A stretch of 64,000 nt of DNA from Actinomycetes bacterium (GTDB lineage: Bacteria; Actinomycetota; Acidimicrobiia; Acidimicrobiales; Acidimicrobiaceae). Positions 12,572 through 15,961 of this stretch are shown piece after piece. Within the stretch, counting starts at the first letter, position 1; the number at the start of each line of letters is the position of its first letter. The stretch covers positions 257,679 to 321,678 of the forward strand of contig JAKCDL010000001.1 in NCBI GenBank assembly GCA_021841935.1. The letters are read 5' to 3'. The notes beneath the pieces were generated by a model. It did not search any database and was not told the origin of the DNA. It saw nothing but the letters and a program-made list of their open reading frames with translations. A program made the translations under genes and the position numbers.

Positions 12572-14218
<1,647 letters not shown>

Positions 14219-14288: not shown

Positions 14289-14570
14289 CTATCTTGAACC
14301 ACCCGCAACTGCAGGAACAATCGAAATAACCTGACCCTCGGCGACCGGGGTGTTAGAACCATCTAGAAAACGTACGTCCTCATCTGCAAGGAAGACATTT
14401 ACAAAGCGTCGTATTACGCCCGATTCGTCAAATATTCGATCTTGAAGACTTGGAAACTGCGCGCCCAAATCGCTCAAAGCCTCACCGACAGTGCTACCAC
14501 TTACGGCTATCTCTGAGACACCCTGAGTAAGAGAACGAAGTTGGGTTGGTATCCGTACATTTACCGACAT
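14289..14570 (-). CDS. MoaD/ThiS-family sulfur carrier, CysO-like
   Basis: 93 residues with the beta-grasp fold of MoaD/ThiS proteins. It is closest to mycobacterial CysO: VRIPTQLRSLT at the start, RRFVNVFLADEDVRFLDG in the middle, and a C-terminus SIVPAVAGGSR. In CysO the chain ends in Gly-Gly, which is adenylated and turned into a thiocarboxylate that donates sulfide to a PLP enzyme. Here two residues, Ser-Arg, follow the Gly-Gly, so the protein must be trimmed before activation, as known for QbsE and for the HcyS carrier of Wolinella. It begins 2 bases after the ThrC-like stop and shares its SAM-riboswitch transcript. No E1-like MoeB or JAMM protease is seen in the window. Confidence 0.88.
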   Translation of the reverse strand: MSVNVRIPTQLRSLTQGVSEIAVSGSTVGEALSDLGAQFPSLQDRIFDESGVIRRFVNVFLADEDVRFLDGSNTPVAEGQVISIVPAVAGGSR

Positions 14571-14572
14571 AT

Positions 14573-15814
14573 TTAGCGACTCCTTTGCTCATTTAAAAAC
14601 TGAAAGAATTGATCGAGCTTTGGCTCGATGGTTATAGTTGCCTGGGTTGTGGGGGCCATCGCTTCAACGGTCTTCAATCCATTACCGGTGATGTATGCGA
14701 CGGTCCTTTCATTCTTTTTGATGACGCCTTCTGCAACCAACTTGACAAGAGTGGCTATTGTAACCCCACCCGCAGTTTCAGCGAAAATACCTTCGGTTCG
14801 CGCAAGCAAGCGTATACCTTCTAAAACCTCTTCATCAGTTACAGAACCAAAACCGCCACCACTTTTTCGTACTACATCGAGTGCGTAGTATCCGTCGGCA
14901 GGATTGCCGATCGCCAAGGACTTAGCTATCGTGTTGGGCTTAACCGGCCTAATAACGTCGCTGTTGGATGCAAAGGCAGTCGCGACTGGAGAACATCCTG
15001 CTGCTTGGGCACCACTAATCTTGACATTAGGCTTTCGCTCAAGGAGCCCAACTCGGTGTAGTTCGTCAAAACCCTTATAGATTTTGGTCAATTGACTTCC
15101 AGAGGCAACCGGGACAACGACATGGTCCGGCGTGTCCCATCCCAACTGTTCAGCTACCTCAAAGGCGAGGGTCTTCGATCCCTCCGAGTAGTACGTCCGG
15201 ACATTGACATTGACAAATGCCCACTCCGGCTCCTCAGAGGCTATCTCGGCGCACAGGCGATTGACATCGTCGTAATTTCCATCTATCGCCACTACATTTC
15301 CGCCATATACCGCGGTTGTAATTATCTTTGCTCTTTCAAGGTTTGCCGGAACAAAGACGTAAGACTCCATATTTGCCCACGCTGCATGAGCAGCTACGGA
15401 GTTAGCCAAGTTTCCGGTTGAAGCGCATGCAGCTACTTTGAGTCCAAGTTCTCGAGCTTTGCTCAGTGCAACTGATACGACACGATCCTTGAATGACCCT
15501 GTTGGATTCAACGTATCGTTTTTGATCCAGAGTTCGTCGAGGCCAAGATGACTCGCGAGTCTTTCTGCGCGTACTAGTGGCGTAAATCCGGCTCCAAGCG
15601 AGACATAGTCGGTAGATTCGACAGGTAGAAGTTCACGGTAACGCCACATATTATTTGGGCCAGCCGCAATTGACTCGTGAGAGACCTTTGATGCGATGGC
15701 GTCGTAGTCGTACCTTACCTCAAGAGGCCCAAAACAAAATTCGCAAACGTGAAGCGCCTTAGCTTCGTAGCTCTTACCACACTCTTTGCACACAAGAGCC
15801 ATAACATTTGACAT
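14573..15814 (-). CDS. ThrC-like fold-II PLP enzyme (threonine synthase family), SAM-regulated
   Basis: 413 residues. The N-terminal zinc ribbon has Cys pairs at 9/12 and 24/27 (CKEC, CEFC). The PLP lysine is in NPTGSFKDR (Lys109), and the phosphate-binding SGSQ turn follows near residue 240. Family members convert O-phosphohomoserine to threonine. The context argues for a different product: the mRNA leader is a SAM riboswitch and the next gene is a sulfur carrier. I infer sulfhydrylation of O-phosphohomoserine to homocysteine. ATG 15814 is the start, because AGGAGG is at 15821-15826; an upstream ATG at 15829 would place this site inside the gene. Plain threonine synthase remains the alternative. 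Confidence 0.85.
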   Translation of the reverse strand: MSNVMALVCKECGKSYEAKALHVCEFCFGPLEVRYDYDAIASKVSHESIAAGPNNMWRYRELLPVESTDYVSLGAGFTPLVRAERLASHLGLDELWIKNDTLNPTGSFKDRVVSVALSKARELGLKVAACASTGNLANSVAAHAAWANMESYVFVPANLERAKIITTAVYGGNVVAIDGNYDDVNRLCAEIASEEPEWAFVNVNVRTYYSEGSKTLAFEVAEQLGWDTPDHVVVPVASGSQLTKIYKGFDELHRVGLLERKPNVKISGAQAAGCSPVATAFASNSDVIRPVKPNTIAKSLAIGNPADGYYALDVVRKSGGGFGSVTDEEVLEGIRLLARTEGIFAETAGGVTIATLVKLVAEGVIKKNERTVAYITGNGLKTVEAMAPTTQATITIEPKLDQFFQFLNEQRSR

Positions 15815-15825
15815 GTCGATCCTCC

Positions 15826-15907
15826 TCATCGCTCGGGCGTTGGCACCTTCTCTCCTCGAGCGGTTGCCGCGGCGTCGTAGGGCCCGTCCCTCGACCGCTC
15901 TTGATGA
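15826..15907 (-). promoter_or_regulatory. SAM riboswitch (S-box-like, short form without P4)
   Basis: Read on the minus strand, the leader reproduces the S-box core in order: TCATC (P1), AAGAG, GAGGGA, GGCCC, GGCAACC, then AAGGTGCCAA and GATGA (P1 return). P1 pairs 15903-15907 with 15826-15830; P2 begins GCGG/CCGC (15895-15898 with 15869-15872). The pseudoknot is perfect: CGGGC in the P2 loop (15882-15886) with GCCCG after GGTGCCAAC (15834-15838). P3 is tiny and P4 is absent, as in the SAM-I/IV variant group. The P1 return directly abuts the AGGAGG ribosome site (15821-15826), so SAM binding should block translation of the ThrC-like gene. Confidence 0.88.
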
Positions 15908-15961
15908 AACATATAATTTTTCAAGTCTACCTAGTGAGATCGGTTAGGTCGCAGCGATTGT

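Follow-up and report, generated by a model that had tools for sequence, protein, structure and literature searches.

The window, by which we mean the whole 64,000-nucleotide stretch of DNA analysed here, carries a structured leader followed by a gene for a threonine synthase-like (ThrC-like) enzyme and a gene for a sulfur-carrier protein, designated metM and metO. The leader, its parts and the two genes lie as follows:

15823..15910, minus strand: SAM-I (S-box) aptamer in a P4-less form, 88 bases (RF00162)
15903..15910, minus strand: P1 5' strand (GUUUCAUC), from the cmscan alignment
15869..15898, minus strand: P2a/P2b with internal loop; three P2a pairs changed on both sides among leaders
15882..15886, minus strand: pseudoknot 5' strand CGGGC, in the P2 loop, from the alignment of leaders
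15842..15868, minus strand: P3 hairpin; three tip pairs changed on both sides among leaders
15834..15838, minus strand: pseudoknot 3' strand GCCCG, after which P4 would normally come and is absent, from the cmscan alignment and leader comparison
15823..15830, minus strand: P1 3' strand (GAUGAGGA), overlapping the Shine-Dalgarno, from the cmscan alignment
15821..15826, minus strand: Shine-Dalgarno AGGAGG, from the sequence; the ATG at 15814 follows 6 bases later
14573..15814, minus strand: metM, ThrC-like PLP enzyme of 413 aa with likely start ATG 15814 (PF00291, 254 bits; MetM clade)
14289..14570, minus strand: metO, MoaD/ThiS-type sulfur-carrier protein of 93 aa with C-terminus VPAVAGG-SR (PF02597, 51 bits; conserved downstream of metM)

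Rfam cmscan of the window placed an RF00162 match on the minus strand from 15910 to 15823. It scores 68.3 bits (E = 8e-14), well over the gathering score of 44.4, and spans the full covariance model, positions 1-108. An earlier note on this DNA had proposed a SAM riboswitch directly in front of a 'threonine synthase' gene, at 15826-15907; the riboswitch and its place both stand, while the interval fell 3 bases short at either end and came without a strand, which is minus. No other RF00162 match occurs in the leader's own genome (30 contigs, 2.53 Mb, completeness estimated at 86.6%). Two other SAM riboswitch classes were rejected on scoring with their Rfam models. RF01725 (SAM-I/IV) gave no match to the leader at E 10, and an internal loop splits the leader's P2, whereas SAM-I/IV is defined by a P2 without one (PMC2864571). 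SAM-IV (RF00634) likewise has no P4, a pseudoknot PK-1 and a split P2, but the leader scores just 14.4 bits against that model's cut-off of 38, and the P5 and PK-2 that define the class (PMC6890682) would not fit before the start codon.

With SAM-I the leader shares P1, P2a/P2b with an internal loop, P3, the pseudoknot and the core sequence. It differs from standard SAM-I in P4, which the earlier note had recorded as missing: the P4 segment of the RF00162 model is skipped in the alignment, and the P4-less form is common to 28/28 aligned leaders of the order and occurs in several other actinobacterial leaders. Since the family accepts the leader well above its cut-off even though P4 is absent, we call it a P4-less variant rather than a standard member. 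Judged from sequence and alignment, the leader is a P4-less SAM-I (S-box) riboswitch.

Comparison of leaders carried the structural case. Among the 28 aligned leaders of the order, 94% of cells were paired, against 35–50% when partner strands were slid, and both partners had changed in 52 cells, where shuffles averaged about 20; the relatedness of the leaders inflates such counts. Most of the double-sided changes fall in P2a and at the tip of P3. Outer P1 pairs are poorly kept (the P1 helix is 82% paired), and the GA flanking the P2a/P2b internal loop is invariant on both sides, as in a kink-turn. The pseudoknot is nearly constant within the order and varies across the phylum, where CGGG/CCCG, ACGG/CCGU, CCGG/CCGG, CUGG/CCAG and UUGG/CCAA all occur; it is fully paired in 51 of 59 leaders, a count that leaves out six leaders not fitting the search pattern, against a shuffled mean of 24.6 and a maximum of 34. 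Despite the relatedness of the leaders, so many kinds of pair speak for genuine selection. The compensatory changes that the earlier note had looked to related leaders for are thus present, in P2a and P3 within the order and, phylum-wide, in the pseudoknot. Its perfect 5-bp pseudoknot, CGGGC/GCCCG, is there as well, with only four pairs secure; the fifth uses C15882, which also closes P2b. The single-sequence folding energy of the leader is ordinary (z = -0.21), so the evidence for a riboswitch is comparative rather than energetic. A chance origin is excluded by the RF00162 score, the recurrence of the element before 67 orthologous genes and the covariation.

The position of P1 suggests how the leader acts. 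P1 had been described as abutting the AGGAGG and in fact goes further, as its 3' strand (15830-15823) takes in the motif's first four bases, three of them pairing; an overlap of Shine-Dalgarno and P1 3' strand recurs in 24 of the 28 leaders. On this anatomy, SAM binding would stabilise P1 and, through the bases that its 3' strand shares with the Shine-Dalgarno, hide that site, so that both metM and metO would be translated less. SAM-I riboswitches of Firmicutes commonly act by transcription termination, and the same operon might be controlled through termination or Rho instead. We consider this unlikely: no minus-strand terminator-like site lies in or just after the leader, and those found overlap one another inside metM, at 14612-14629; promoter and terminator scans alike gave shuffled expectation. 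The 8 bases between P1 and the start codon also leave no room for a separate platform, and the recurrent overlap with P1 points to hiding of the Shine-Dalgarno as the mode of control. The predicted fold of the leader becomes ambiguous once more downstream sequence is included. An in-frame ATG at 15829, listed as the start of metM in the set of open reading frames, was rejected because it falls inside the invariant P1 strand and is followed by the AGGAGG. As a natural minimal SAM-I aptamer set within a ribosome-binding site, the P4-less leader should help in working out the role of P4.

The usual name of the downstream gene is readily explained. Its predicted product has the PALP fold (PF00291), retains the PLP lysine motif NPTGSFKDR that is shared with threonine synthase, and passes the cut-offs of two threonine synthase models, PRK08197 (316.1 bits, cut-off 303) and TIGR00260 (309.7 bits, cut-off 167.1); its best PDB matches are threonine synthases, and there is weak similarity to cysteate synthase. 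Its cysteine-rich N-terminus matches Pfam NinF at 28.5 bits (cut-off 27.5), a hit that we regarded as spurious. In a maximum-likelihood tree, metM and its orthologs form one clade (96/92) apart from both the short and the long ThrC groups, with one long-branched row of another kind inside it. The unlikeness to ThrC extends to single residues: at 36 positions the MetM clade and ThrC have each fixed a different residue, and the ThrC-fixed residues T88, S155, N157, R160 and N188 (T. thermophilus numbering), among others, are replaced throughout the clade. Some of these residues presumably contact the substrate phosphate.

A genuine threonine synthase under SAM control, balancing how much O-phosphohomoserine goes to threonine and how much to methionine, would account for the profile scores and PDB matches, and one metM+ genome (G014, loci L010 and L044, 99% complete) has no other ThrC above the TIGR00260 cut-off, so that there either a ThrC escaped the search or threonine comes from another route. 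We nevertheless regard this as very improbable. The window's own genome has a canonical ThrC at another site (C25:226361-227302), and a separate ThrC exceeds the TIGR00260 cut-off in 15 of the 16 metM+ genomes tested; the replaced residues, the general lack of MetX in metM+ genomes and the carrier-protein partner, which a threonine synthase leaves unexplained, all weigh against it. The ThrC name of the gene is thus most likely wrong, as the earlier note had suspected, given the separate clade and the canonical ThrC in the same genome. The form of ThrC sorts with metM: it is short in metM+ genomes, and long and matching a different profile in the metM- genomes tested.

We then mapped the distribution of metM. 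A close ortholog (58–82% identity) is present in 66 of 148 genomes of the order, while six further matches at 36–44% identity belong to a different group. RF00162 precedes 67 of the 69 metM copies in the order, and the other two are gene fragments without a 5' end. Across the phylum, it stands before 20/20 further loci chosen there, before 13/13 named loci (12 from Streptomyces and relatives, plus Nonomuraea, the only close named relative that the plasmid collection yielded), and before metM in 11 of 20 loci of a second phylum-wide set. The remaining nine of that second set (L096, L098, L099, L101, L103, L111, L112, L114 and L115) are metM orthologs with no Rfam riboswitch at the gathering threshold. 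Riboswitch control of metM is therefore common across the phylum and not universal. In Nonomuraea (NZ_LT559118.1, 11810244-11811458, L193), metM with its riboswitch and carrier gene sits in a stretch without listed features.

The presence of metM runs against that of MetX. Within the 148 genomes of the order, MetX was found in 6 of 66 metM+ genomes versus 73 of 82 metM- genomes (Fisher p ~3e-24, uncorrected for relatedness). Read from our tables, about 29 families carry metM, and MetX occurs in metM+ genomes of only four of them. MetA was absent from all 26 genomes examined more closely, and seven of 16 metM+ genomes tested had no Cys/Met-metabolism PLP enzyme, absences in each case being judged from family searches. 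A metM- genome of the same order offers a natural control for the pathway assignment, with RF00162 standing before metY-metX (G004:C181:7081-7169, L075).

A system of this kind has already been reported. In Streptomyces albulus, MetM is reported to be a homocysteine synthase that converts O-phosphohomoserine to homocysteine, with an upstream SAM riboswitch and a carrier gene, metO (Hasebe et al. 2024, Appl Environ Microbiol 90:e01247-24, as cited in PMC12172450). The window protein falls in one clade with named Streptomyces proteins and is 54–56% identical to its counterpart in most of the Streptomyces genomes compared. Orthology was judged with other Streptomyces proteins, the S. albulus sequence not being in the comparison, and the large genomes at ~55% identity were assigned to Streptomyces by one protein of theirs that is 80–95% identical to named Streptomyces records. 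Because the named Streptomyces loci share the gene order, the riboswitch and the carrier motif, we take the window operon, from sequence comparison, to be metM-metO and a member of the MetM-MetO system reported in 2024. The earlier note's find is correct, yet the pathway had already been described, which its author could not know. Its step from SAM control to methionine or homocysteine synthesis holds up too, in that MetX is largely excluded where the gene is present and the same riboswitch-enzyme-carrier order recurs in Streptomyces.

What sets this member apart is its P4-less leader, a carrier whose tail extends past Gly-Gly and, in the same genome, a second homocysteine route under predicted SAM-IV control, as this genome, unlike the Streptomyces system, encodes MetX-MetY in addition. 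Streptomyces leaders, by contrast, retain a 40-base stretch, of P4 length, at the P4 site. A cyanobacterial (Microcystis) relative, 51.6% identical to Streptomyces MetM, has threonine synthase and threonine deaminase activity and gave no methionine increase (PMC12172450), which raises the prospect that the window enzyme likewise combines these two activities. We give this little credence: the Microcystis gene has no riboswitch and may itself still have a role in methionine synthesis, whereas the actinobacterial clade has both SAM control and complementarity with MetX.

The second gene of the operon, metO, begins 2 bases past the metM stop, and a carrier gene lies directly downstream of metM in nearly all loci; in 79 of 80 named loci it ends in the same P-A-V-A-G-G motif. 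Most carriers end exactly in GG, the genus neighbour in GG-AF and the window's own in GG-SR. Since Ser-Arg follows Gly-Gly in this MetO, a trimming step would be needed. In HcyS-HcyD-type and CysO-CysM-Mec+ pathways, sulfur is held on a Gly-Gly protein thiocarboxylate, as proposed for MetO, and the tail is trimmed by a JAMM protease; they differ from MetM-MetO in the PLP enzyme family and the substrate. The window's genome encodes a JAMM/Mec-type protease with an apparently intact metal motif. Such a protease occurs in 24 of the 26 genomes searched, whether they carry metM or not, and therefore does not discriminate metM+ genomes. Among relatives of the window's tail (14292-14303), we observed GG, GGC, GGA, GGI, GGAF, GGSR and a few longer ends, implying trimming in some lineages only.

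A sulfur-carrier partner is typical of CysO-CysM, and together with the JAMM/Mec-type protease and the weak cysteate synthase similarity it might point to a carrier-dependent PLP enzyme with another product, such as cysteine or cysteate. This we hold to be highly unlikely, as the protein is ThrC-like rather than CysM-like, the SAM riboswitch indicates methionine, and the complementarity is with MetX. In our model, MetM would be a PLP enzyme derived from threonine synthase that, by orthology with Streptomyces, swaps the phosphate of O-phosphohomoserine for sulfur from the Gly-Gly thiocarboxylate of MetO, once a peptidase, perhaps the genome's JAMM/Mec-type protease, has removed Ser-Arg. The resulting homocysteine would feed methionine and SAM. 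Very probably, then, the P4-less SAM-I riboswitch turns down translation of metM-metO at high SAM, and MetM makes homocysteine with MetO.

In nearly half of the sampled genomes of the order, and in many across the phylum, a gene named 'threonine synthase' thus probably encodes the homocysteine synthase. In pathway tools such metM+ genomes would come out as methionine auxotrophs, and the combination of riboswitch and carrier gene gives a simple rule for re-annotating such genes.

Unlike most metM+ genomes, that of the window has a complete MetX-MetY route (metY-metX), so metM is not its sole source of homocysteine. Outside the window, at G000:C9:48718-48826, metY-metX is directly preceded by a SAM-IV riboswitch (RF00634, 49.8 bits, cut-off 38). 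Both homocysteine routes of this genome therefore appear to be SAM-controlled, through predicted riboswitches of different classes. The metM-metO route would use phosphohomoserine and carrier-bound sulfur, and the metY-metX route acetylhomoserine and sulfide. A tentative and rather doubtful possibility is that differing SAM sensitivities of the P4-less SAM-I and SAM-IV elements choose the route by sulfur supply; the gene sets and riboswitches are observed, and the division of labour is conjecture. The gene downstream of the operon in the window is groEL (12572-14215), and it has this place behind metM-metO in 29 of the 34 loci that we examined.
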